The notes below the pieces were generated by a model. It searched no databases and was not told where the DNA came from. It saw only the letters and a program-made list of their open reading frames with translations. This document shows, one piece after another, positions 7,834 to 46,121 of a stretch of DNA of 46,121 nucleotides. Within the stretch, counting starts at the first letter, position 1, and every line of letters starts with the position of its first letter. The stretch is taken from IMG/VR virus record IMGVR_UViG_3300046791_000055, positions 1 to 46,121 of that record; one strand, given 5' to 3'. The position numbers and the translations under genes were made by a program. Source of the stretch: a virus.

Positions 7834-9684
7834 TTATTTTGCCTCATATTTTTCTTCTTCGCCCTCTCCCCAATGAGAGCCTATTTTTATACCAACTCCA
7901 AGTGGGGTCTTGAAGTCATAATCATACAGTTTCTTCAGCATCCAAACTATGTCTTTCGTGAACGCTTGCTTGAGGATTTCTTTGTAGGCATCCTCTTGGC
8001 CGGGGAGAACATCTGCGACAAGGGAATCGTGAACGGTGTTAACGATCTTGATTTCCAAGCCTTTACAATAGTGCCATACCAGAACCAAAGTAAGTGGAAT
8101 AATATCCGCTGTAGCAAAGCTTTGGATCGGGTAGTTAAAGATGCTCGTCCTGTTCTCGATATAGCCACTTCTGCTTATCTCCGTGTCGGGCCAGTGAAAC
8201 ACTAGGCCGCTAGGTATTCTCAGCCTTTTACTAGCAAGTACTTCGTACGTCCATCGCTCTTGAGCCGCATAAAGAGTAGAGTATCGCTTCCGAAAAGCTT
8301 GAAAATACGCCCTTTGACGAGGGGTGCCTGCATTACCGCCATAGAGTGGTCGAAAGGTGAGAGCTTTTGCATCCTGACGGGTAACCCGCAACTGTTCAGC
8401 AGAGAATCCGTGGATATCCAACCCTTCCCGAACATCTCGTCTTCCTTGCTCGTCGTCCGTGATGTCAATTCCAACTCTGAACTCAAGTTGTGGCGCATCT
8501 GCTTCGCAAATATTCCAGCCGTCACGCCTAGCTCGAAAAAGAGGTTTGAACTCTCGGGGAAAATTGTGAAACTGGAAACCCCATTTTCCTCCAGTAGATG
8601 ATAAGCGGCCTGTCTGTGTAACAGTTTGGTTGAAAGTCGCATACACTTTACCTTCGTCTTGTTCGCAGCACTCGACCATGCTTTCGAGTATCTGCATCTT
8701 ACGTTTTAGCGGAAGCAGGGCCATCAGAGCATCTTTGAATTCTTCTTGCTCAGGACTCTGCGGTTTCAGGGTGGCGACAATCTCTTTCTTAGTTGCCTTC
8801 TTGCCACCCTTGGTTCGTATCGGATTCCCTTTGTAGTCTAGAGCTTCCTCAAATCCAAGCTTATCGTACAGGTAAGCCCGAACTTGTTTAGAAGACTTGA
8901 AATTAATTCCTCCTGTAATTCTCTCAAATTCACCCTCAGCACTCTGGAACCGTGTCTGGTAATCTTCAAATGTAGATCGTACTCTTTCGTGGTCGAGTCT
9001 GGTTCCTTTGTACTCGATATCTGCGAGGGCTGGGGTTGCAAGGCATCTAGCGTAGAACACTCGAAGCAATCCTTGCTCCCTGAGTGCCTCTCGTTGTCGT
9101 AAGAAGATTTCATGTGTTAGCCTAACGTCTTGTTCACAGTACCTAAGAAGTTCACGTTCTCCAATGCTTTCGACTGGATATCCACTATGGATAAGCCCAT
9201 GTACGAATCTACACTTTCCTTTGAGTCCGTAGCGAGTTGCGACCCTACCCAAGTCGAGTCGTCTCTTACGATTTCCGGCGATGCAATACTCACCGATTTG
9301 CGTGTCATAGGGAAGTAGCTTTCGGAGGTCAACGCCCATTCGATGGAGCCACTTAAGTTCAAATTTGGCATTGTGTGCGACAATAAAGTCAACAGATCGC
9401 AAACGCTCCGCAAGCTCTCGTTGGTCGAATTCACCGGCTCTCTGCGCTCGAAAACAGTTGTGTCCCCGTTCTCGAACCCCCCGATCCAGCCCGTCCAACC
9501 AGACTGCGAGAATAAGCCGGTTTGAATCAACGCCTGCGTCTCCCTTCTCGAGGTTGGTAGTTTCAAAGTCAAGTACAACATAGTTATCACTCTCCAGATA
9601 GATGTTCGGATTAGGGTCCGAAACGAATTTAGGTAGGGTCCACCGTTCCGATTGAGGGGTTGATGGAGACTGTAAAATGGTCAT
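7834..9684 (-). CDS. DNA polymerase, family A (T7-like) with 3'-5' exonuclease
   Basis: The 616-residue enzyme has exonuclease motifs VVLDFETTNL, VAHNAKFELKWL and YCEQDVRLT. Its polymerase motifs are TGRLSSTGG, motif A EADAPQLEFRV, motif B RQDAKALTFRPLYGG and motif C NTVHDSLVADV. At the O-helix position that is Tyr526 in T7 polymerase this enzyme has Phe, as E. coli Pol I does. ATG at 9684 was chosen; a GTG at 9693 would add three residues. It overlaps the helicase gene by about 55 bp. No thioredoxin-binding insertion was obvious. Confidence 0.95.
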   Translation of the reverse strand: MTILQSPSTPQSERWTLPKFVSDPNPNIYLESDNYVVLDFETTNLEKGDAGVDSNRLILAVWLDGLDRGVRERGHNCFRAQRAGEFDQRELAERLRSVDFIVAHNAKFELKWLHRMGVDLRKLLPYDTQIGEYCIAGNRKRRLDLGRVATRYGLKGKCRFVHGLIHSGYPVESIGERELLRYCEQDVRLTHEIFLRQREALREQGLLRVFYARCLATPALADIEYKGTRLDHERVRSTFEDYQTRFQSAEGEFERITGGINFKSSKQVRAYLYDKLGFEEALDYKGNPIRTKGGKKATKKEIVATLKPQSPEQEEFKDALMALLPLKRKMQILESMVECCEQDEGKVYATFNQTVTQTGRLSSTGGKWGFQFHNFPREFKPLFRARRDGWNICEADAPQLEFRVGIDITDDEQGRRDVREGLDIHGFSAEQLRVTRQDAKALTFRPLYGGNAGTPRQRAYFQAFRKRYSTLYAAQERWTYEVLASKRLRIPSGLVFHWPDTEISRSGYIENRTSIFNYPIQSFATADIIPLTLVLVWHYCKGLEIKIVNTVHDSLVADVLPGQEDAYKEILKQAFTKDIVWMLKKLYDYDFKTPLGVGIKIGSHWGEGEEEKYEAK

Positions 9685-10837
9685 GGTTTCCACTGAGTTT
9701 ATTCTTGCAAAGGCTTATTGTTCTTAATCCGTGTTTCTCCATGCTTTCGTCTGCACCTATCCCGATCATGAGGTCCAAGGTAGCCGGTATCCCGGTCTTA
9801 CTAAAATCGACATCTGACCTTCCGAGTACTGATTTTCCCTCAGCAGAATCTCCGGCTTGTGTGACAGAAACAACAACAAGTCCGTATTTTTTAGCGAGAT
9901 TCCTTGCTTCTGTAGCTGCTTTTTCGAGCTGGAGCACACGAGAATCGCTGCTAACTTCAAGATTCCTAAGCTGATCCAACACAACAACCGCAGGATCGTA
10001 CTTCTCCACCAACTTCCGAATTTCAAAGAAATTTCCGGGCGATAGAGAGGCAACGACGAGATTGCCATATCCCTTTGTAAATGCACGTTTTTCTGCTTCC
10101 TCTGGGTTTCCAAATACTTGTTGTTTCGTCATCTTGGACAGCCTCGTAATCATCCTCAACAGGATATCCGAGGCAGGGTCTTCATTACCAATATATAACA
10201 CTTTCAGGTCTTGTGCAAGGAATCCTGCTGCCATGTTGAGTACAACCAAGGTCTTCCCGATTTCGGGTCGAGCATAGACCAAGATGTGATGGCCCGGTCT
10301 ACAACCCCCGTCAATGCGGTCATTAAGCTCTTTTGGTAGTAGCTTGATGAGGTTGTCTTTACCAAATGCTGTGCGTACAAGATCATCCACTCCACGTCCA
10401 ATGAAGATTTCTTCATTTTCCTCTGCCTCCTGTAATCCTATGTCTTGATATTTCGTCATCTTCTCGATGACGAGATTTGGGTCAGCCCGATTCACTAGAT
10501 CGAGGGCAATTTCTTCCCCCAACACTTGTTGCTTCAACAGCTTGATGTCAAGCAGTAGATTCGGTACTGAGATTTCCTCGTTAAGCGAGGAAACGTAGGC
10601 TTGGATCGCCTCTACCTGTTTAGGATTGTTATAGGTAGAGGCGACCCGATCAACTAGAACGCTCTTCTCGGCCTTCTTTACGTCTTTATCTGCTTCGTAG
10701 AAATCTTGGATCAGCTTGGCCGTAGCCGACCCAAGGGGCGAAAACTTCTCGGGACTTACCCGACTGAACAGTTCCTCATACGACGCCCGCGCTACGAGTG
10801 CTGCTGACAGCACCCTCTTCTCGATTTGTAATGACAT
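9629..10837 (-). CDS. Replicative DNA helicase, DnaB-like
   Basis: This 402-residue protein has an N-terminal helical domain (1-130) and a RecA-like core. The core shows a P-loop ARPEIGKT at 189-196 (first Gly replaced by Ala), Walker B VVVLDQL near 284-290, and VVVSVTQAGDSAEGK as the DnaB H3-like motif. It should unwind DNA at the fork with the neighbouring primase. The SD is weak (GGAAG 13 bases from ATG), and the gene overlaps the primase end by 62 bp, so translation is probably coupled. Confidence 0.92.
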   Translation of the reverse strand: MSLQIEKRVLSAALVARASYEELFSRVSPEKFSPLGSATAKLIQDFYEADKDVKKAEKSVLVDRVASTYNNPKQVEAIQAYVSSLNEEISVPNLLLDIKLLKQQVLGEEIALDLVNRADPNLVIEKMTKYQDIGLQEAEENEEIFIGRGVDDLVRTAFGKDNLIKLLPKELNDRIDGGCRPGHHILVYARPEIGKTLVVLNMAAGFLAQDLKVLYIGNEDPASDILLRMITRLSKMTKQQVFGNPEEAEKRAFTKGYGNLVVASLSPGNFFEIRKLVEKYDPAVVVLDQLRNLEVSSDSRVLQLEKAATEARNLAKKYGLVVVSVTQAGDSAEGKSVLGRSDVDFSKTGIPATLDLMIGIGADESMEKHGLRTISLCKNKLSGNHDHFTVSINPSIGTVDPT

Positions 10838-11645
10838 TTTTTATTGTTTCTTCCGTTTCGTACTTGAGGTCTCTCTTGAGGGAGACTACTCTGCACTTTT
10901 CCCACATACCCTTGTACATTGTATAATGCCTCATCGCAGTTTTCAAGGCCCCCGGATCGAGGGCTAGAACTACTTCCCCATCTTCACACTCTTTGGCTAT
11001 CTCTACAGCCGCCGCCCAGCTTATGCCGGTGCCGTTCAAGCTAGTAGCCCAATACCCCGCCTTAGCCACTTTCACAGCGCTGAACCAGTCCTCCACTAGG
11101 ACTTGAATCCGATTGTTCGCGTTATGAAAGATCATAGGCTGTACCCACCCTATGAACGGCTCTCGCAGCCTGTAGACGTAGTTCAGGGCCTTAGGCGTTA
11201 GGAATAACGACCTAGCGACGTATCCCCGCATGGAGCCCCAAGGGCCTCGTATGGGCAACAGAAACCGCTGATCGTCAAGACATCTACGCACTCCGTGAGG
11301 AAAGTCCTCCGGGTCTAGGTCGTACTTCTCTTTGAAGTACTCGTAGTCTAGCTCGCTAGGATTAACGGTCTCCCCGGTGTACTCGTAACCCCGCTCCACA
11401 CTCACCGCTGCCTCTGGCCGGTGGCCACCACCCCGAAGGATGACGGCCCCCTTGAGTCGGCAAGAGTCCCTAAAACACTGATAAAGAATACGACCTGCTT
11501 CGTGGGTTACGGAGAGGCTTTTCTCGTTATCATTCCCTCCGTAACACATTGGACACTTCACCCGACTAGAAGTTCCCTCCGGAATCTCCGCCGCCACCAA
11601 GACCTTGATGCTTTGCTTGGCTAGTTCAGTGTCAGTAAATCGCAT
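10776..11645 (-). CDS. DNA primase, zinc finger plus TOPRIM
   Basis: ATG at 11645 has AGGAG seven bases upstream; earlier in-frame starts overlap the previous gene and lack this site. The 289-residue protein has a zinc-binding N-terminus (CPMC...CFRDSC), then a TOPRIM-like core with VLVEDWFSAVKVA (Glu) and LALDPGALKTA. In the last motif the canonical DxD reads D-P-G. Primase is encoded apart from helicase, unlike the fused T7 gp4. It primes lagging-strand synthesis. Confidence 0.87.
   Translation of the reverse strand: MRFTDTELAKQSIKVLVAAEIPEGTSSRVKCPMCYGGNDNEKSLSVTHEAGRILYQCFRDSCRLKGAVILRGGGHRPEAAVSVERGYEYTGETVNPSELDYEYFKEKYDLDPEDFPHGVRRCLDDQRFLLPIRGPWGSMRGYVARSLFLTPKALNYVYRLREPFIGWVQPMIFHNANNRIQVLVEDWFSAVKVAKAGYWATSLNGTGISWAAAVEIAKECEDGEVVLALDPGALKTAMRHYTMYKGMWEKCRVVSLKRDLKYETEETIKNVITNREEGAVSSTRSAGVV
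11549..11576 (-). promoter_or_regulatory. Possible intragenic ECF/sigma-E-like promoter
   Basis: On the minus strand GGAACTT (11576-11570), 15 bases and GTCCAA (11554-11549) match the E. coli sigma-E consensus layout exactly. The site is inside the primase coding region (zinc-finger codons), so it may be chance. If active it would add transcription of helicase, polymerase and nucleases. Confidence 0.3.
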
Positions 11646-12267
11646 CGGCATACTCCTGATCGAACTCAACCTCGTCCTCATCGCCATCGTCGTCTTCTTC
11701 CTCCGCCGACAGTTGATCCTCACCCGGCCTGAACTTGGTAAAGAACCAAGCCCTCACCTTGTGCCCGTGCTTACCCGGAAATATCAAGGACTCCACAACG
11801 TGGCCGTGCGCCTTCAGTTCCTCAGCGATCTTGAAGCCGTTGCCTTGATCGTTGTCTGAGAACATGAAGTTAAACGCACCGGAGTACGGCTCAATGGCCT
11901 TCAAGAACTCTTCTGTTGTGCTGTCGTGCACCGGAGTAACTTCGTACATGCCGCAGTTACCTTGGGTCCCGAAGACCGTAGGTGGTCGTCGGGTAGGCAC
12001 AACAGGTGCAAAGTAATCCCTTACCGGAGCTTGAGCTAAAGGAGGATACCGAACAACTACAGTATCCATCATATTGGCGGGAATATTCCACTGCTGCCAT
12101 CCCGCTTGCGTCTGTGGTGCACCCTGCATTCCGTACATCTGAGCAAATTGGTTTCGTTTTAAATCTTGCATTTCCATTTGTTGTCTGGTTCTTCGCATTA
12201 ACTCGTCCACTTCTGCGTTGCGTAGAGCCAATTCAGCTTCTCCAATTGAGGCTGTTATAGTCGGCAT
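11632..12267 (-). CDS. Unknown protein with C-terminal domain shared with two neighbours
   Basis: ATG at 12267 (MPTITASIGEAEL) is preferred; an upstream in-frame region overlaps the preceding gene. The 211-residue protein has a helical, Gln/Met-rich N-terminus (~1-75), a Pro-rich linker, and a C-terminal domain (~110-185: FNFMFSDNDQGNGFKIAEEL...VRAWFFTKF) that resembles the products at 12617-13048 and 13045-13488. It ends in a very acidic tail (AEEEDDDGDEDEVEFDQ). It lies directly before the primase and overlaps its start. Function unknown; context suggests DNA replication or nucleic-acid binding. Confidence 0.72.
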   Translation of the reverse strand: MPTITASIGEAELALRNAEVDELMRRTRQQMEMQDLKRNQFAQMYGMQGAPQTQAGWQQWNIPANMMDTVVVRYPPLAQAPVRDYFAPVVPTRRPPTVFGTQGNCGMYEVTPVHDSTTEEFLKAIEPYSGAFNFMFSDNDQGNGFKIAEELKAHGHVVESLIFPGKHGHKVRAWFFTKFRPGEDQLSAEEEDDDGDEDEVEFDQEYADAIY

Positions 12268-12520
12268 CGTCGTCGTCTTCCCAAGCGTCCGAATCGTTTG
12301 GAATATTTTCTTCAGGGGTTTCATAATAGTAGACTGGTTCAACCTCTTCTTCGCAATTAGGACACGCGTCAGTTCCAACGGTATCCACGGTCATTTCCCA
12401 CGATTTACCGCAGTGTCGGTAAATTACATCAAAGAACTTCCTGTCTGTGGTACCCATCGTGGCGTTCCACAGCTCAGAGAAGGCGCTTTCCCGCTTCACA
12501 GAACGCTCATGACGGCGCAT
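12233..12520 (-). CDS. Hypothetical zinc-ribbon-like acidic protein (95 aa)
   Basis: ATG at 12520 has AGGAG seven bases upstream. The product contains HCGKSWEMTV and CPNCEEEVEPVYY, a probable zinc ribbon, and ends with an acidic run (AWEDDDDADYNS). It overlaps both the membrane peptide upstream and the next gene. No family recognised. Confidence 0.68.
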   Translation of the reverse strand: MRRHERSVKRESAFSELWNATMGTTDRKFFDVIYRHCGKSWEMTVDTVGTDACPNCEEEVEPVYYYETPEENIPNDSDAWEDDDDADYNSLNWRS

Positions 12521-12616: not shown

Positions 12617-13048
12617 TCAAGCCTGCCTTGCCTTCGCTACGCGAGGCTTTGTCGTTACACTAGGTTTTGCTGCCTTTGGCGTGTGAAGAGTAGGAACAAA
12701 AATCCAACACCTGATCTTGTTGCCTGAGTTGTAGTTGGTGAAAACGCTGCTTTCCGTCAACTCTCCTAGTTCATTTTTCCGTATGTAGTCCGCCAACCCC
12801 TGTCCACCCAAGTGTGGAGTGTTGGTAGTATCTGAAAATATGAATCCGATCCTAGAGTGACGAGATTTAGCTCCACCGCCATTCCCGATGGCAGCCCGCC
12901 TTCCCTTCTCTCTGGAAATGTAGTCCTCTATCTGTTTGACGAACACCGGCCCTGTTAGGTCTGTAGCTCCGTAATAATTCCTACCAAACGCACTAACTCC
13001 GGTGATAACCTTGAAACCACAAGAAAATGGTGACGCATCAATTCTCAT
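12617..13048 (-). CDS. Unknown protein, paralogue 2 of 3
   Basis: The start overlaps the previous stop as ATGA at 13045-13048. The 143-residue protein aligns by eye with its neighbours over IGFIFSDTTN...GLADYIRKNELGELTESSVF...NKIRCWIFVPT. Before that, an N-terminal domain (FKVITGVSAFGRNYYGATDL...ISREKG) resembles that of paralogue 1 at 13045-13488. The C-terminus is a basic Lys/Arg/Ala/Pro tail, in contrast to the acidic tail of the 11632-12267 protein. Function unknown. Confidence 0.75.
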   Translation of the reverse strand: MRIDASPFSCGFKVITGVSAFGRNYYGATDLTGPVFVKQIEDYISREKGRRAAIGNGGGAKSRHSRIGFIFSDTTNTPHLGGQGLADYIRKNELGELTESSVFTNYNSGNKIRCWIFVPTLHTPKAAKPSVTTKPRVAKARQA

Positions 13049-13488
13049 TTGGGCATTTTCTCCGCGTTGTCCGTCAAGTATTTACGAATGGCCGTTTGAT
13101 CCGCCACCAAGATGAACACCTTGATCCGGTTCCCCTTCGGGCCGTAAGTGCCGTTACGAAAAACCTTGGTTTGAGTCACATCTCCGAGCTTGTGCTCTTC
13201 CAAGAAGTTGGCTATGGACTGACCAACCCCGAACCTGTAAGTAGACATTGGGTCGGGGGGGTCAATCGCGCAAACATCTGACCAAATAAAGAACTTAGTT
13301 CCAACGTCCTCTCCAGCTTCGTGTTTGGGCAACACTTCCTCTATGGTAGCCAAGAAGTGCTGTCCACGGACTTCATCCGTAGTATTGGATAGCGAGGTCT
13401 TGCCCTTGACACCAGAACTGAGGCCGCTCACAGTCCTACCCCCGCAAGATATGCCGGGGTGGCCATCACCAACGTGTCCTAATTGCAC
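13045..13488 (-). CDS. Unknown protein, paralogue 1 of 3
   Basis: GTG at 13488 has a near-perfect GGAGG five bases upstream. The 147-residue product shares the pattern FFIWSD...GQSIANFLEEHKLGDVTQ...NRIKVFILVAD with its downstream neighbour and with the C-terminal half of the protein at 11632-12267. The layout is an F-F-SD strand, a helix with G-x-x-(I/L)-A, an L-G-(D/E) turn, then a K-(I/V)-x-x-(W/F)-(I/F) strand. No known family recognised. Confidence 0.75.
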   Translation of the reverse strand: MQLGHVGDGHPGISCGGRTVSGLSSGVKGKTSLSNTTDEVRGQHFLATIEEVLPKHEAGEDVGTKFFIWSDVCAIDPPDPMSTYRFGVGQSIANFLEEHKLGDVTQTKVFRNGTYGPKGNRIKVFILVADQTAIRKYLTDNAEKMPK

Positions 13489-14810: not shown

Positions 14811-15569
14811 TCAAGCACCAAGAAACTGCCCGAAGGCACGTTCATAGTTGTTGAGGGTAGTGGCAGTGATGCCGGGAGCACTGTTGACTTCAAGCACAGC
14901 GCAGGTCCCATCTCGTCGAACTCGCATATCCACCGCCCCAAAATCGAGTCCCAAAGCACGCACAGATAGGAGAGCGGCATCTTTATGCTGCTGGTGGAGT
15001 TCTGCACCTTCTCTAGCATAAATCCACCCGTTGCCGTGAGTTCGAATCCAGTACCGCTCTGGTGAAGGATTTTCAACCCCACCTTGCTTTCTCTTCTCTG
15101 CGAAATCAACAACTTGATCCCGAACAACGTGAACTCTAACTTCCCGGTCGCACTTGTAGAAACGGGTGTAGAGCGGAGCCGGTGCAACCTGTTTCTTACC
15201 TTCCTTAGCGATGTAGAGATTGATCCCAGCTCCCGCACTAGAGCGCAGTAGTGTTCGTCCATAGACGGTGCTGCCGTCTGCGAGCCACTTTTCAGCGTCT
15301 CTTCGATCTGTTGTGAAGTCAACGGTTGGCACCATTGCCGCCCTAAGCGCTTGCAAAGTGGACAACTTGTTAACGGCTCTTCGTACGGCGCTTGGATCGT
15401 TGATGACATTCTGGCCATTCCTTATTCCGGGGATTTCAGAGCAACCCCAATTGATGACGGTAGAGGTTCGTATCGGCAGAGGGCGGCCCACTATCACCCG
15501 CCGGACGCCTAGCCTCCTAGCTAGGGTCCGAGATGATGCAGAACGCCTTGACACCATGACTGTGCTCAT
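14811..15569 (-). CDS. ATP-grasp ligase, RimK-like
   Basis: The 252-residue protein ends with the ATP-grasp metal site: LGLDFGAVDMRV (Asp214), then CAVLEVNSAPGI (Glu227, Asn229). Upstream, VYGRTLLRSSAGAGI and PLYTRFYKCDREVRVHVV fit the ATP-binding strands. The fold activates a carboxylate as acyl-phosphate for attack by an amine. The start overlaps the glutamine amidotransferase stop (TAATG). Its tight coupling to amidotransferase and amidoligases argues for one pathway making an amide- or peptide-linked product; substrate unknown. Confidence 0.85.
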   Translation of the reverse strand: MSTVMVSRRSASSRTLARRLGVRRVIVGRPLPIRTSTVINWGCSEIPGIRNGQNVINDPSAVRRAVNKLSTLQALRAAMVPTVDFTTDRRDAEKWLADGSTVYGRTLLRSSAGAGINLYIAKEGKKQVAPAPLYTRFYKCDREVRVHVVRDQVVDFAEKRKQGGVENPSPERYWIRTHGNGWIYAREGAELHQQHKDAALLSVRALGLDFGAVDMRVRRDGTCAVLEVNSAPGITATTLNNYERAFGQFLGA

Positions 15570-17032
15570 TAGTGCACCTTAGACCGCGACGGGAGCGAAG
15601 CCATATCCCGCGCATCGTCGTCCTCAGAGCAAGTCCCGCAAAGGAACGTAGCCGGAGTGCCGGGAAGCCAAGTGATCTTGTCCGCATCTTCCTTGGTTAC
15701 GCCGGAGCTACAAACAGCACAACCGGGCTTGACAAGCTCTTTCCAAGCACCCTCAGGCAGGAATATGGACCCCGGACCCTGAATCAACTCCGGTTGATCG
15801 TCCAAGTCAAGCTCTACTTTGGCGTCCTTGATGACTTTCTTGACTGCTTCGGTCACTGTTTTGCCCTCTCTCGCTTGTGTTTCTTTAACACGTTGCGCGA
15901 TTTCTGTCAAGTGGGTGTCGCAAATAATGATCTTGGTAAGCCCTCGGTTCTTCGTGACTTCCTGTACACGAATAACGCGGCAAGGGAGAGTATTTCCCTT
16001 CTCCTTGAAGTACTTCTCGTACAGGGCCCAGCCAGCAACCCGCACAGAGTGGACCCAAACCTCCTGCTTCTTGCCCGCGCCGTCGTAGCAGTGTCCGAAG
16101 ATTTTACCGAACTGGTCCTTCTTTTCCTTCTGATTCTCTTGACCCTGATAGCCCTCATAGTCCTCAAGGAACACTTCCACAATCTCGTCGCGCTTGAGCT
16201 TCATAGTCTCAAGTTCAACAGTTGAGAAGTCGAAGGCCCTATTCCGGCCCTCAAATGGCTCCCTAGCAGGCGGAGTGTACACACTCGCCTTAGGCTCCGG
16301 CTTAATGTCAATCATCTTCGGCTTAGCCGAGAGACCATCCGGCGTGATCTTCCAAGAGAACCACTGGTGCTCACCGGGATAGACCCACTTAGCGTTCTTA
16401 TCAAACTCAACGCTGTTGCGAGTTGTGAGCCAATCCAACATCTTGTACTCCGATCCGTAGTACAGGTTGCCCGCTGTGTCCGAGGAATAGAAGATATCCC
16501 GGTTATCGTTGCGAGCGATGTTGAACGTCTTATCCGTACCGTCCCACCAAACAAACACGAACCACCCGTTGATGGATTTCAACGTTTTAGCTACGTCTTC
16601 AGACTCCGCAAGTGCGAAAGCTGCGTGAGCTGAGTCAACATCATGGTTAAATCCAACGGGCGTGAGCCTGCGGTGATCGTGCAGTGTGCCGTTGTGCACA
16701 AGGATGATCTCCCGCTTCTCTTTGTAGTGGAACGGGTGACAATTCTTGTCCTTTACTGAGCCAATGGTCGCAGCGCGATTGTGGCCAATCGCTATACGAG
16801 CAAGGTCCATCCTCGCGTATCCGCGATCTGCAACGTCACTGTTGATGAAGTCAGGTCCCGATAGGGCCCGCTTATAGCTCTCAACGTCACCTTTATCCGT
16901 TACGAGGGCAACACCCGTACCACCTTGTCCCCTAAGGGAGTCGACATGGAGGCCCTGATACAGAAAATTGGCCCGTCGATTGTACAAGGTTCGAGTATCA
17001 CCGTTAGCTACGAATCCAACGATCCCACACAT
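15569..17032 (-). CDS. Class II glutamine amidotransferase
   Basis: The protein starts MCGIVGFVANGDTRT, with Cys2 as the N-terminal nucleophile after Met removal. It shows RGQGGTG, IAIGHNRAATIG and IILVHNGTLHDHRRL, the glutamine-binding motifs of the GATase II family. The 487 residues exceed the ~250-residue glutaminase domain: residues ~260-487 are a second domain of unknown role ending in a zinc ribbon (CAVC...CGTC). It should release ammonia from glutamine for the neighbouring ligases. Both ends are coupled to neighbours by TAATG. Confidence 0.9.
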   Translation of the reverse strand: MCGIVGFVANGDTRTLYNRRANFLYQGLHVDSLRGQGGTGVALVTDKGDVESYKRALSGPDFINSDVADRGYARMDLARIAIGHNRAATIGSVKDKNCHPFHYKEKREIILVHNGTLHDHRRLTPVGFNHDVDSAHAAFALAESEDVAKTLKSINGWFVFVWWDGTDKTFNIARNDNRDIFYSSDTAGNLYYGSEYKMLDWLTTRNSVEFDKNAKWVYPGEHQWFSWKITPDGLSAKPKMIDIKPEPKASVYTPPAREPFEGRNRAFDFSTVELETMKLKRDEIVEVFLEDYEGYQGQENQKEKKDQFGKIFGHCYDGAGKKQEVWVHSVRVAGWALYEKYFKEKGNTLPCRVIRVQEVTKNRGLTKIIICDTHLTEIAQRVKETQAREGKTVTEAVKKVIKDAKVELDLDDQPELIQGPGSIFLPEGAWKELVKPGCAVCSSGVTKEDADKITWLPGTPATFLCGTCSEDDDARDMASLPSRSKVH

Positions 17033-17994
17033 TAGGCAAGCTCCTTTCTAGCTTTGTCTATAAACGATTGATAGGCGGGGTTTATCCCGTCCGAAAGCGG
17101 ATAGACTGCCCCAACTGGTGCTGGCCTATCAAATCGGTACTTCTGCTCCATGTCGGTGGATATGGCTTGTACTAGGAAGATGCCCTCCCAAATAGCACGA
17201 TCATCCACGAGTCCCAAGAACCACTCCGGAAAGATGCTCCGGGCCATGTCCATAGCGCCACCCTTGGCGATAAACGCAACGAACTTGTCGTGCGTAAGCG
17301 CGGTTGGGCCCCACTGCGTACCTGTGGCGGCGTTGTAGATGGACATAATCAAGTTGATCCAATTACGAATCTTGGCGAAGTCCCCCGACATTTGCAGGTG
17401 TCGGAACTCGATTGATCCGTACTTCTCCAGTGCGTTACAATTCAACGCTGAGTATCGCTCTACGCTCTTGAGCACGTTCCTAGCTGATTGGCGATCCACG
17501 TCGTCCTTGAATATCGTGAACACGCTGTCAAGGTGATCCGATATCCTGTACCAAGGCGCACAGAAGTTGTTCGCTGTCCTGTCATCTCCTACGAACGAGA
17601 AGATGGACTGCTCGAACAGGGCGTAAATAACGAACAGTCGCTTCAGTTCGTCGACCTCCATATTACGCGTGTCAACATGAACATGAAGACCAGTGCGATA
17701 GTTATACACAAACGGATATTTAGCGACGAACGCAGCCGCTTTACTGACCGCAATATCCAAGTCTTGGCCGAACATGGGTTGTGCGAGCACAAGCTCGAAC
17801 CCGTTGTCCCGCAAGCTTCCGTCTCGCTCGTGCACCCAATGCGGTGCGTAGTCCTCTTGCACATACCTTGCCCCCTTGGGGTTCTCTATCTCCAGCTCCA
17901 GCCCTATGCGGAGCTTAGGCGCTAGCCAGTTCTTGGGATCAGCCTCGTACTGATAGCCAGAACTCGGGTGCCCCACCATGTCTCCTACTTTCAT
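17032..17994 (-). CDS. Amidoligase (Amidoligase_2-like COOH-NH2 ligase)
   Basis: The 320-residue protein shows the glutamine-synthetase-like amidoligase signature: GLELEIE (Glu33, Glu35), ERDGSLRDNGFELV, TGLHVHVDTR (His104, His106, Asp108) and RYSALNCNALEKYGSIEFRH. Such enzymes join carboxylates to amines with ATP. The start is coupled to the preceding unknown gene by ATGA. It is one of two amidoligases of different subfamilies in this operon. Confidence 0.86.
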   Translation of the reverse strand: MKVGDMVGHPSSGYQYEADPKNWLAPKLRIGLELEIENPKGARYVQEDYAPHWVHERDGSLRDNGFELVLAQPMFGQDLDIAVSKAAAFVAKYPFVYNYRTGLHVHVDTRNMEVDELKRLFVIYALFEQSIFSFVGDDRTANNFCAPWYRISDHLDSVFTIFKDDVDRQSARNVLKSVERYSALNCNALEKYGSIEFRHLQMSGDFAKIRNWINLIMSIYNAATGTQWGPTALTHDKFVAFIAKGGAMDMARSIFPEWFLGLVDDRAIWEGIFLVQAISTDMEQKYRFDRPAPVGAVYPLSDGINPAYQSFIDKARKELA

Positions 17995-18653
17995 TGTAGA
18001 ACAACTCCTCTACGAGTCACGCTCTTGACTATCTCGGCCAAGTTCTCCATGTGCGCGGGCATGATGATGGTGCTCCCGTCGTCGTATCCAACCACACCGT
18101 TTTTGTAAACGATGAGAGGATATCTTGAGGTCTTTTCCAATCGAACAAGGAATCTGCGAGAGAAAGCTCTCGCGTACACTTCTCCACTAGTCACCATCCC
18201 TAGTGCGGTGTTGTAGCTAGGATACGGCTTATCATAGTTGTCCATGATATCCAACACCCCAACCTTGAGCACCGGGCTCAGTTCCGTCATGTCTACTGCT
18301 ATGCCCGTAGCGTTGGCGAAGTAAATGTTGTTAGCCGTAACGACCTTCGAGTACTGTCGTTGCGGAAACGCCACACTCCTGATAACGTGGTTAGGCGTGT
18401 TGATGTACTTGGACTCAGGAATGTACCAAGTAGCGCTTTTCTTAATGTAATCAAGGCCGTAGGTCAACTCCTTCGTGGCTTTTCGAGCCGTGATTATCTC
18501 AATGCGGATAGGCAGAGCCGCATCAATACCGGGCACATCTCTGGGCACAGCCTTGATGAACTTGAAGGTGCGAATGCCTCCGCTCTTAGCTAGAGGTATC
18601 TTACCCCAACCCTCAACGTGAGCTTTGTAAAACTCTTCGTATTCATTCGCCAT
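17991..18653 (-). CDS. Unknown protein encoded between two amidoligases (220 aa)
   Basis: ATG at 18653 (MANEYEEFYKAHVEGWGK) is preceded by GAGG; it overlaps the upstream amidoligase by 11 bases, and its stop overlaps the next amidoligase as ATGA. The product looks like a soluble mixed alpha/beta protein (IRIEIITARKATKELTYG, GEVYARAFSRRFLVRLEK). I recognise no family. Its fixed place inside the ligase operon makes it a candidate acceptor, carrier or regulatory subunit. Confidence 0.75.
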   Translation of the reverse strand: MANEYEEFYKAHVEGWGKIPLAKSGGIRTFKFIKAVPRDVPGIDAALPIRIEIITARKATKELTYGLDYIKKSATWYIPESKYINTPNHVIRSVAFPQRQYSKVVTANNIYFANATGIAVDMTELSPVLKVGVLDIMDNYDKPYPSYNTALGMVTSGEVYARAFSRRFLVRLEKTSRYPLIVYKNGVVGYDDGSTIIMPAHMENLAEIVKSVTRRGVVLQ

Positions 18654-20013
18654 CTTCATCACCCTCGGGTTCTGCGATCCATTGTTCAACATCTGCTGCT
18701 TCTGCCCGCAACATCTCTGGCAACGGGAAGTCCCTACGCCGCCCATCAGGGAAGTGAACAGTGGCCAAGTAACCATCTGTTCGCATCATGAAGTGATACC
18801 GCCGGTCGCCGTCGTGCTGAGACGTAAAATTGTGATACACACCGGCTCGTCTGCCTGTGTAGACCACTCGTGCGAAATCATCGAACTGATCCATAGGAAT
18901 GTTGCCCATCGCCCAATTGAACAAATCAGGAAGACTGTTAAGACGAGTGACGTGACCTATCAGCGGTGGTGCGTCAAGCCCCATGCCAGCCCAAAGATCA
19001 CCATCTCTGCGGTTGTTGGCCGGAGCAGCAGCCTCAAGCAACTGTGCCAACCTATCACCTTCTGGCGCAGCATCAATGCCTATTGCTTGAATGGCCCCTG
19101 CTTCACTCTCCCGACTGTAACCCTCAAGCTGGAGCCTAGGAGGCTTAGCTGTGGACCTACGCCCACTCAGAGCGTTATCAATCTTCTTTCGCACGCCCAA
19201 CAAGTTCACGTTGAAGCCCGAGTAGTCTTTCTTGTCAAAGCTGTAGCGGGCATTGAGAAGATCACCACTGTGATACACTTTAGCTAGCTCCGAGATTGCG
19301 TCATCGTTTTTTGTTGTGAGAATACGCTTGATGCTCTCGTCTATCTGCATGAGATAGGGAATGTAATCCCCACCCATCCACAGTGTGTTAGGAGTCCTGT
19401 ACTCCACACCGTACGGAGTCTCCCGCCAAATGCCGGGGATACCGTAAAACTTTTCGCGCGGCGTCTTTGAGGGCGAGAACGCGCGCCCCCAATACGCGGC
19501 TAGGAACTGCACAAACGCTTTCTTAGGCAACCAATCTGGCCAAGGATCACAACCGATGTGAACGTGGCCTCCCGCAAAGCGCAAGCTCCCCATTTCCTCG
19601 ATGGAAACTGGTGGCCTGATTTCTTGTTCTGAGAAAGCGTCTTTGTCAGTCGTGCAACCAATCTCGGTGAAGCCGGGATTGTCTTGGTACTTCTTGGGTA
19701 CCTCAATGTGATCCTGACCGAGAGTGTATTTAACGACTCTCCCCAAGAATCCGCGCCCTGCTCCAGCGATGATTTCGTCAATGCTGCAACAGAGCACATC
19801 ACCCAACTGCGACAGGTGTTCCATTGGCTTAACGTTAAGCTCAACGGCTACACCGTCTTTGAGCATACCAACACCAAACTTCTTGCAGATGTGACTATCC
19901 AGCATCTGCGGTGCGCCCTTAGTGCCCTCGATTTGCAGTTCCCAAGAGGGAATCAAACCCCCCGTTCTGTTCGTAAAAAGGATTTCGGGGTCGGCCCCGT
20001 ATGTAATCCTCAT
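18643..20013 (-). CDS. Phage-type COOH-NH2 ligase (type 2 amidoligase)
   Basis: The 456-residue protein has GADPEILF at the N-terminus (Asp8, Glu10), GTKG and DGVAVELNVKP (53-63), FAGGHVHIGC (His150, His152) and YGIPGIWRETPYGVEYRTPN. This is the pattern of phage type 2 COOH-NH2 ligases, a glutamine-synthetase fold family. Residues ~280-456 form an extra domain that may bind substrate. The start overlaps the preceding stop (TAATG). It should form an amide bond at ATP cost, probably with the amidotransferase downstream supplying ammonia. Confidence 0.86.
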   Translation of the reverse strand: MRITYGADPEILFTNRTGGLIPSWELQIEGTKGAPQMLDSHICKKFGVGMLKDGVAVELNVKPMEHLSQLGDVLCCSIDEIIAGAGRGFLGRVVKYTLGQDHIEVPKKYQDNPGFTEIGCTTDKDAFSEQEIRPPVSIEEMGSLRFAGGHVHIGCDPWPDWLPKKAFVQFLAAYWGRAFSPSKTPREKFYGIPGIWRETPYGVEYRTPNTLWMGGDYIPYLMQIDESIKRILTTKNDDAISELAKVYHSGDLLNARYSFDKKDYSGFNVNLLGVRKKIDNALSGRRSTAKPPRLQLEGYSRESEAGAIQAIGIDAAPEGDRLAQLLEAAAPANNRRDGDLWAGMGLDAPPLIGHVTRLNSLPDLFNWAMGNIPMDQFDDFARVVYTGRRAGVYHNFTSQHDGDRRYHFMMRTDGYLATVHFPDGRRRDFPLPEMLRAEAADVEQWIAEPEGDEDGE

Positions 20014-20213
20014 TAGCTAGTCGCTCCTTCTACCCACGCAACAAAGTCGTGGTATTTGACTTCAAGTTGTTCCGCAATACTACTCCAAGCGAACGATTCT
20101 TCTGATCCCGGCTCAATCTCCGCCAGTGTATTGGCTCGCAGTGCTGCCTCCTGCCACTCCAAATACAGGGACTCTTTTCGGTGGTTCAATCTCTCTACGA
20201 ACTGCTGGTGCAA
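20013..20213 (-). CDS. Small hypothetical protein (66 aa)
   Basis: This helical acidic protein (KESLYLEWQEAALRANTLA) uses a TTG start at 20213 or an internal TTG at 20189. It overlaps the preceding zinc-ribbon gene by about 100 bp, and its TAA overlaps the amidoligase ATG. The coupling supports it; no family recognised. Confidence 0.52.
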   Translation of the reverse strand: MHQQFVERLNHRKESLYLEWQEAALRANTLAEIEPGSEESFAWSSIAEQLEVKYHDFVAWVEGATS

Positions 20214-45149: not shown

Positions 45150-46121
45150 TGTCTCGCGGTCTATTTGATCTAATACACGACTACCAGAGCGGCGGATCGA
45201 ATCCTACGGGCTACGCCCCCTTCGACCCTAGCTACGGCATTAGTCCCTATCAAGCTATTGCCATGCAAGCTCGCGGCAACCTCATGTCTAACCCGCACGC
45301 AGGTTCTGCGCTAGCCGGTAACGTCATAGGTGGTGCTCTCGGTAGCCTCGTAAAGAAGGGTATTGATACCTACAAAGCGAGGAAGCCGGAAGCTAAATTA
45401 GCTGCCCACATGGGGCGGGCTATTGACACCGCGCTCAATTCTAAGATAGCCAACATCATGCAGAAGGACCCGAGTATCTCGGGTAAAGATGCTATGGTTC
45501 AGGCTGCTCACGAGCTTATGGCATCAACTGCCGGGTCTCAGCAAGACCCTGACCTCAGAGACGCAGTTCGCAGTAAAGCCATGAGTGTGCTTGAATCTAT
45601 GGGAGAGTTCAGTCCCGAAGCTCAAGCTAAGTTTGCGGCTGCCCTGAAAGACAAGGCGGCTGCTGGTGATCCCGGCTCCATGAAGGTGCTGGAGAATGAC
45701 CAAGGGCAACGAGTTACGGTGCCCGAGAAACAGGTCCCACTGTTCATCAAAGACCACCAAGGCTTTGGGCTCATAGACACGCCCCCTACCGGACAGATTA
45801 AGCCCGGTGAGACGGTTACTGGCTACGAGAATGATAAGCGCCTTACATACGTCCACGATCCGCACGGAGACATCACGGGCCGTAAGCCCGGTCCCGGTGG
45901 GTGGGTAGCGTTCTCCGGTGACGCTAGAGCCGCCGCTGGTGGCAATGAGGCTCCTGACAACCGCACCAAGTCCGATCTGTCCGGTACTGCTGGTGACTTC
46001 TATAGCTCATTGGCCGGTCTTGAGCAAATGAACATGGCCTTCGATAATGTTGGTGGTCTCTTAGATCAGGCCGAAAAAGAAGGCATCAAAGGTACTACTG
46101 GTACTGCTGGCGCGTTCTATC
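45149..46121 (+). CDS. Virion protein, N-terminal part (continues at 1-678)
   Basis: The frame starts at the ATG overlapping the preceding stop and stays open to the end of the window; positions 45995-46121 repeat 1-127, so the full protein has 507 residues. The N-terminus (MSRGLFDLIHDYQSG) is followed by a Gly/Ala segment (SALAGNVIGGALGSLVKKG) that may be an amphipathic or membrane-active helix, then charged helices. No enzyme motif was seen. Probably an internal virion protein. Confidence 0.8.
   Translation, partial: MSRGLFDLIHDYQSGGSNPTGYAPFDPSYGISPYQAIAMQARGNLMSNPHAGSALAGNVIGGALGSLVKKGIDTYKARKPEAKLAAHMGRAIDTALNSKIANIMQKDPSISGKDAMVQAAHELMASTAGSQQDPDLRDAVRSKAMSVLESMGEFSPEAQAKFAAALKDKAAAGDPGSMKVLENDQGQRVTVPEKQVPLFIKDHQGFGLIDTPPTGQIKPGETVTGYENDKRLTYVHDPHGDITGRKPGPGGWVAFSGDARAAAGGNEAPDNRTKSDLSGTAGDFYSSLAGLEQMNMAFDNVGGLLDQAEKEGIKGTTGTAGAFY

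Follow-up and report, generated by a model that had tools for sequence, protein, structure and literature searches.

A compact form of the phage amide-bond cassette, in which a type 2 COOH-NH2 ligase is paired with a conserved protein family

Introduction

The viral record analysed here (46,121 bp, referred to over its full length as the window) carries five overlapping genes, A-B-C-D-E, running on the minus strand from 20013 to 14811. To judge from their sequences, they are a member of the amide-bond cassette known from phages PaP3, phiEco32, CW02 and RIO-1 and are not new as a set. The new elements are the strict pairing of ligase A with protein B, a predicted fold of B that has no match in the PDB, and the reduction to five genes. 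Hundreds of phages carry the set, including well-studied Pseudomonas and E. coli phages, and the window provides a compact five-gene version. Since B is tied to A, GGCT and class I GATase are optional, and C-D-E is found without A and B, the cassette falls into two units, A-B and C-D-E, whose chemistry can be tested gene by gene.

Iyer et al. reportedly described, in 2009, amidoligases with ATP-grasp, GS-like and acetyltransferase-like domains. In RIO-1-like phages a seven-gene 'peptidoglycan modification cassette' has been reported, with the hypothesis that it prevents superinfection, and the carriers named there, after Hardies 2013, are phiEco32, 7-11, PA11, tf, MR299-2, LUZ24, PaP3 and CW02 (PMC5498523). 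The same gene series is present in UFV-P2 (PMC3890496). The cell-wall and superinfection idea has also been put forward for phiEco32 (PMC10580990, citing Iyer 2009), while nitrogen and amino-acid metabolism has been proposed as an alternative (PMC10945688). A biochemical test of these phage enzymes was not found in the searchable literature, in line with the first-pass annotation of this DNA, which had considered the chemistry of such sets not to be established.

Results

Organization of the locus

The first bases of the record reappear at its end (from position 45,995), which fits a complete genome bounded by direct terminal repeats. Coordinates and assignments are listed in Table 1. Genes A and B overlap by 11 bp, B and C are joined by ATGA, and TAATG is found at both the C/D and D/E junctions; the gene coordinates of the first-pass annotation and its coupled junctions between the five genes were reproduced when recomputed from the sequence. 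The short ORF upstream of A gave no family match in Pfam or PHROG and is not known to be part of the cassette. The genes for primase, helicase and DNA polymerase all lie downstream of the cassette, confirming that it adjoins replication genes. None of the 19-residue stretches of A-E is strongly hydrophobic (highest mean 1.24) and the enzymes are therefore presumably cytoplasmic.

Table 1. Predicted features of the cassette and its surroundings in the window
Feature	Position	Strand	Length	Assignment	Basis
66-aa ORF (TTG start), upstream of A	20013..20213	-	66 aa	TAATG junction to A	
A	18643..20013	-	456 aa	COOH-NH2 ligase type 2 (glutamine-synthetase/GCS-like), residues 1-285, plus extension 286-456	phrog_3815, fold
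B	17991..18653	-	220 aa	phrog_11055 family protein	PHROG, alignments, model
C	17032..17994	-	320 aa	Amidoligase_2 (PF12224)	Pfam and phrog_7469
D	15569..17032	-	487 aa	Class II glutamine amidotransferase domain, residues 1-~215	PF13522 and phrog_4736
E	14811..15569	-	252 aa	RimK-like ATP-grasp ligase	phrog_2599 and PF08443
Tandem paralogous ORF	13045..13488	-			
Tandem paralogous ORF	12617..13048	-			
Tandem paralogous ORF	11632..12378	-			
Primase	10776..11723				
Helicase	9629..10837				
DNA polymerase	7834..9693				

The four enzymes

The families of A-E were confirmed, and residues constant in each enzyme family, defined from 15 phage proteins per family, are kept in A, C, D and E. Taken together, family identity and residue retention go far beyond chance. 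The PHROG and Pfam profile searches agree with the families proposed for the four enzymes in the first-pass annotation, and the catalytic motifs that it described as intact are indeed retained; neither a failure of two or more of the families nor broken catalytic residues, which it had named as grounds for rejection, was observed.

Protein A matches phrog_3815 ('COOH.NH2 ligase') at 1.3e-20. The window's own copy does not reach the Pfam threshold for PF14395, a profile that 39 of the 40 sequences in its alignment do match. In the PDB, its predicted structure is most similar (best E 1.6e-3) to the carboxylate-amine ligase YbdK, glutamine synthetases, plant glutamate-cysteine ligase and Dop, which all belong to one superfamily. 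Residues D8, E10, E58, H150, H152, R186, E204 and R206 are retained. The profile match, the predicted GS/GCS-like fold and the metal- and ATP-binding residues identify A as a putative type 2 COOH-NH2 ligase. At 456 aa, it is longer than its counterparts in other loci (median 265). A search for relatives of the C-terminal extension (~170 residues) found none, structure prediction gave no confident fold for it, and it appears to be unique to the window's copy.

Protein C scores 38.8 bits against Amidoligase_2 (cut-off 22) and 3e-40 against its PHROG family, and retains E33, E35, E37, D58, R62, H104, H106, R139, E196 and R198. Protein D matches GATase_6 (PF13522) with 61.6 bits (cut-off 27) and phrog_4736 at 8.9e-57. 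It has the features of a class II glutamine amidotransferase, with a Cys directly after the initiating Met (C2), the Arg of the GHxRxAT motif (R86) and the Asn-Gly oxyanion pair (N114, G115), and also keeps T89. It lacks a synthetase domain, in whose place stands a C-terminal region with a CxxC...CxxC end (CAVC at 438, CGTC near 465).

Protein E matches phrog_2599 at 9.6e-63 and the RimK profile with 23.4 bits (cut-off 21), and its family profile matches the solved RimK-type ligases 7qyr, 7qys and 5zct. The ATP lysine and the Mg-binding Asp, Glu and Asn are present (K68, D214, E227, N229). The second ATP-binding Lys of RimK is replaced by Arg105, as it is by Arg in all 15 aligned phage proteins.

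Protein B, a conserved partner of ligase A

The first-pass annotation had left the 220-aa product of gene B without an assignment. It still has no PDB-matched fold, but it is not an extra: B occurs in 40 of the 41 loci with A (the exception is L019) and in none of the 15 without A. It had first been counted in 39 of the 56 loci used for gene counts, and a profile built from viral-contig members added one, in L070. As in the known cassette, B sits between the two GS-like ligases A and C. The window copy matches phrog_11055 at 2.3e-9, as do 36 of the 40 sequences in its alignment. A BLAST search of phages with B gave no matches, nor did pairwise BLAST against the proteins at the same position in PaP3 and Alcaligenes phage; the relationship to these same-position proteins was recovered by family, profile and structure comparison. 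We conclude that B forms one conserved family, a core component of the cassette linked to ligase A.

An AlphaFold2 model of B built from 40 sequences has a pLDDT of 82, rising to about 94-98 over residues 141-220. Foldseek matched it to models of phage proteins that had been generated separately, among them that of CW02 gp8 (E 7e-7, TM 0.60/0.68), which occupies the same gene position, and found nothing better than E 0.41 in the PDB. The window copy deviates at two nearly constant positions (alignment A7), with Ala for Arg at 95 and Val for Gly at 104, in a region where the alignment is uncertain. The B alignment contains no conserved C-terminal tail of the kind that marks a carrier. Like E, B is usually basic (median pI 9.0 for B, 9.2 for E), in contrast to A, C, D, GGCT and class I GATase, which are acidic. 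Two further matches were dismissed: RimM (NCBIfam, 0.0016, 18 bits against a cut-off of 189) and SspH (one lone match).

Mass spectrometry of phage SU10 picked up the ATP-grasp, GATase and GGCT-family proteins, all early gene products; the sample had been PEG-concentrated without CsCl purification, so that detection shows expression and not virion location. A 23.2-kDa hypothetical protein was also listed, as CDS86 (PMC4281155). In the deposited SU10 record CDS86 is a 42-kDa amidoligase, and the 23.2-kDa mass fits CDS87 (205 aa), the B homologue, which was therefore probably detected.

Distribution of the cassette

An IMG/VR scan with the E alignment identified at least 584 ATP-grasp relatives, while single-sequence scans with B and with E gave no matches. 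We kept 80 loci, of which the 56 with at least 5 kb upstream of E were used for gene counts; since loci were reached via E or A and some are near-duplicates, these counts are not a census. Among the 56, D is present in all, C in 54, A in 41, class I GATase in 28 and GGCT in 12. Neither of the last two was matched among the window ORFs of at least 50 aa, even at E 10. GGCT and class I GATase are thus optional and not defining features of the cassette, and the window appears to carry a reduced five-gene form, whereas many relatives have GGCT and class I GATase genes as well. The neighbourhood with primase/helicase and DNA polymerase is constant across loci, and on bacterial MAG contigs A-B-C are adjacent in all eight loci.

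The gene-neighbourhood survey and the literature agree with the first-pass annotation that such combinations of families are known from phages. Its proposal of one co-operating set is borne out by PaP3, Kuravirus, Zobellviridae and Alcaligenes phages, as well as dozens of viral contigs, in which the same families co-occur. The order A-B-C-D-E is found in PaP3, Ka1, Alcaligenes phage QDWS535, Escherichia phage MN05, Aeromonas phage APT65, Pantoea phage TacPo2 and Pseudomonas phage JB8. Salinivibrio phage CW02, PA11, Klebsiella phage Klyazma, phage T4S1 and Vibrio phages Phriendly and 1.262.O have the order D-A-B-C-E, to which Sinorhizobium phage phiM6 and Rhizobium phage RHph_N3_13 add a second D.

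The PaP3/LUZ24-like phages (Bruynoghevirus; orf48-47-46-45-(44)-43-42) share the five families with the window, in the same order and likewise upstream of primase/helicase and DNA polymerase genes, but in PaP3 a 72-aa gene separates D from E and a gamma-glutamyl cyclotransferase gene follows E, both missing from the window, and the PaP3 A lacks the C-terminal extension. The RIO-1/PSA-HP1 cassette also combines two amidoligases, an ATP-grasp protein and a glutamine amidotransferase among replication genes; it has seven genes including GGCT, against five in the window, and its function is hypothetical as well (PMC5498523). In phiEco32/Kuravirus (MN05, SU10), where the order is that of the window, there are extra small genes and GGCT, and the genome is larger and unrelated to that of the window. 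Zobellviridae (CW02, PA11, Klyazma) share all five families and have class I GATase in addition, but D precedes A and is separated from E, whereas D and E adjoin in the window.

Some variants were also observed. Six viral contigs (L025, L037, L042, L078, L089, L094) carry a reduced C-D-E set without A and B, in which C is long and divergent (~505-535 aa). In six loci (L029, L040, L056, L067, L068, L091) a second, more distant ATP-grasp gene precedes D. A CxxC...CxxC protein of ~60-118 aa with an acidic tail is encoded in 27 loci (e.g., L003:13620-13817), mostly ~1 kb after the ATP-grasp gene. This was the only frequent small ORF in a search for a conserved peptide gene; its position outside the operon and its absence from most A-E loci led us to reject it as a conserved peptide substrate.

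Discussion

Glutamine synthetase and GCS activate a carboxylate with ATP, and class II GATases hydrolyse glutamine. The explanation we favour, and to which we would give roughly an even chance, is a cytoplasmic amide-bond pathway acting on a small peptide or peptidoglycan precursor. That the genes serve a single pathway is suggested by the same families and order in the named carriers, by the kept catalytic residues and by the A-B pair, which is kept or absent as a whole. A, C and E would each use ATP to activate a carboxylate for joining to an amine, with E ligating in the RimK manner, as suggested by the predicted fold of A and by the match of the E profile to RimK-type ligases. D would probably free ammonia from glutamine for at least one ligase step, although its lack of a synthetase domain counts against this ammonia feeding A, C or E. 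B would be an obligate partner of ligase A, as adaptor or substrate. Together these activities could make two or three amide bonds in the cytoplasm, where the order would perhaps be the one put forward in the first-pass annotation, amide formation before ligation.

Expression of the cassette would be early, as is suggested by the early products of SU10 (PMC4281155). The substrate would most plausibly be a host small peptide or a peptidoglycan precursor; the latter is a reasonable carboxylate-rich substrate, and this view draws on the naming of the cassette in RIO-1-like phages (PMC5498523). The infected cell might thereby be altered to suit this phage or to exclude others. Against peptidoglycan we count the basic B and E and the constant primase/helicase and polymerase neighbourhood, which it leaves unexplained, together with the preference for nitrogen and amino-acid metabolism in PMC10945688.

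That metabolic proposal leads to an alternative we think unlikely, in which the cassette serves auxiliary nitrogen or small-molecule metabolism, making or recycling gamma-glutamyl amides or related metabolites that GGCT and class I GATase remove in relatives. These two enzymes are indeed encoded alongside the cassette in many relatives, and phiM6 has its class I GATase annotated as gamma-glutamyl-hydrolase-like, but the window lacks both removing enzymes, and such metabolism would need neither B nor two different GS-like ligases.

RimK modifies ribosomal protein S6, and PafA tags proteins with Pup. Tagging of a specific host or phage protein, with B as adaptor or modified protein and with host machinery redirected early in infection by the glutamyl or amide groups that the ligases add, also seems improbable to us. 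It would fit the restriction of B to loci with ligase A, the RimK-like nature of E, the presence of Dop among the fold relatives of A, and the basic B and E beside acidic A, C and D. On the other side, B has no conserved carrier tail, no target is known, and three ligases, a GATase and, in relatives, GGCT exceed the needs of known tagging systems. A more specific version, in which B is the carrier or target of a phage-specific peptide tagging and A, with C and E, builds a glutamyl or amide chain on or through it, is suggested by the occurrence of B only with A, its confident model without PDB match and the probable detection of its Kuravirus homologue by mass spectrometry. We consider it a distinctly long shot; if true, it would be a protein-modification pathway new to phages.

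A use of the amide chemistry to hypermodify bases of the phage DNA, or a nucleic acid, would agree with the replication-gene neighbourhood and the basic B and E but is very improbable, the DNA version being judged unlikely, given that no base-modification gene was seen in the window and that virion DNA of the carrier phage tf is cut by RsaI, HpaI, EcoRV, SmaI and HaeIII (PMC3517423).

The virus and its neighbouring genes

The cassette resides in a mosaic genome (34508-40094 and the polymerase gene), in which the relatives of capsid, terminase and polymerase all show <40% identity. Streptomyces phage phiSASD1 and cyanophage Pf-WMP3 have the major capsid proteins nearest to that of the window, the terminase is nearest to large T5-like and Rhizobium phages, and the DNA polymerase is nearest to those of Stenotrophomonas phage StenR_269 and Vibrio phages such as VpV262. 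The virus probably represents a new genus or higher rank. A search for the window capsid in five carriers (PaP3, QDWS535, CW02, PA11, MN05), run without a positive control, gave no match. To judge from these capsid and polymerase comparisons, the cassette seems able to move between phage backbones.

Three tandem paralogous ORFs lie between the cassette and the primase gene (Table 1). A Pfam search with them was empty at E 1e-4, and PHROG gave nothing for the 248-aa copy; all share the C-terminal motif ...IA..L..H.LG.VTES.VF...GNKIR.WIFV.
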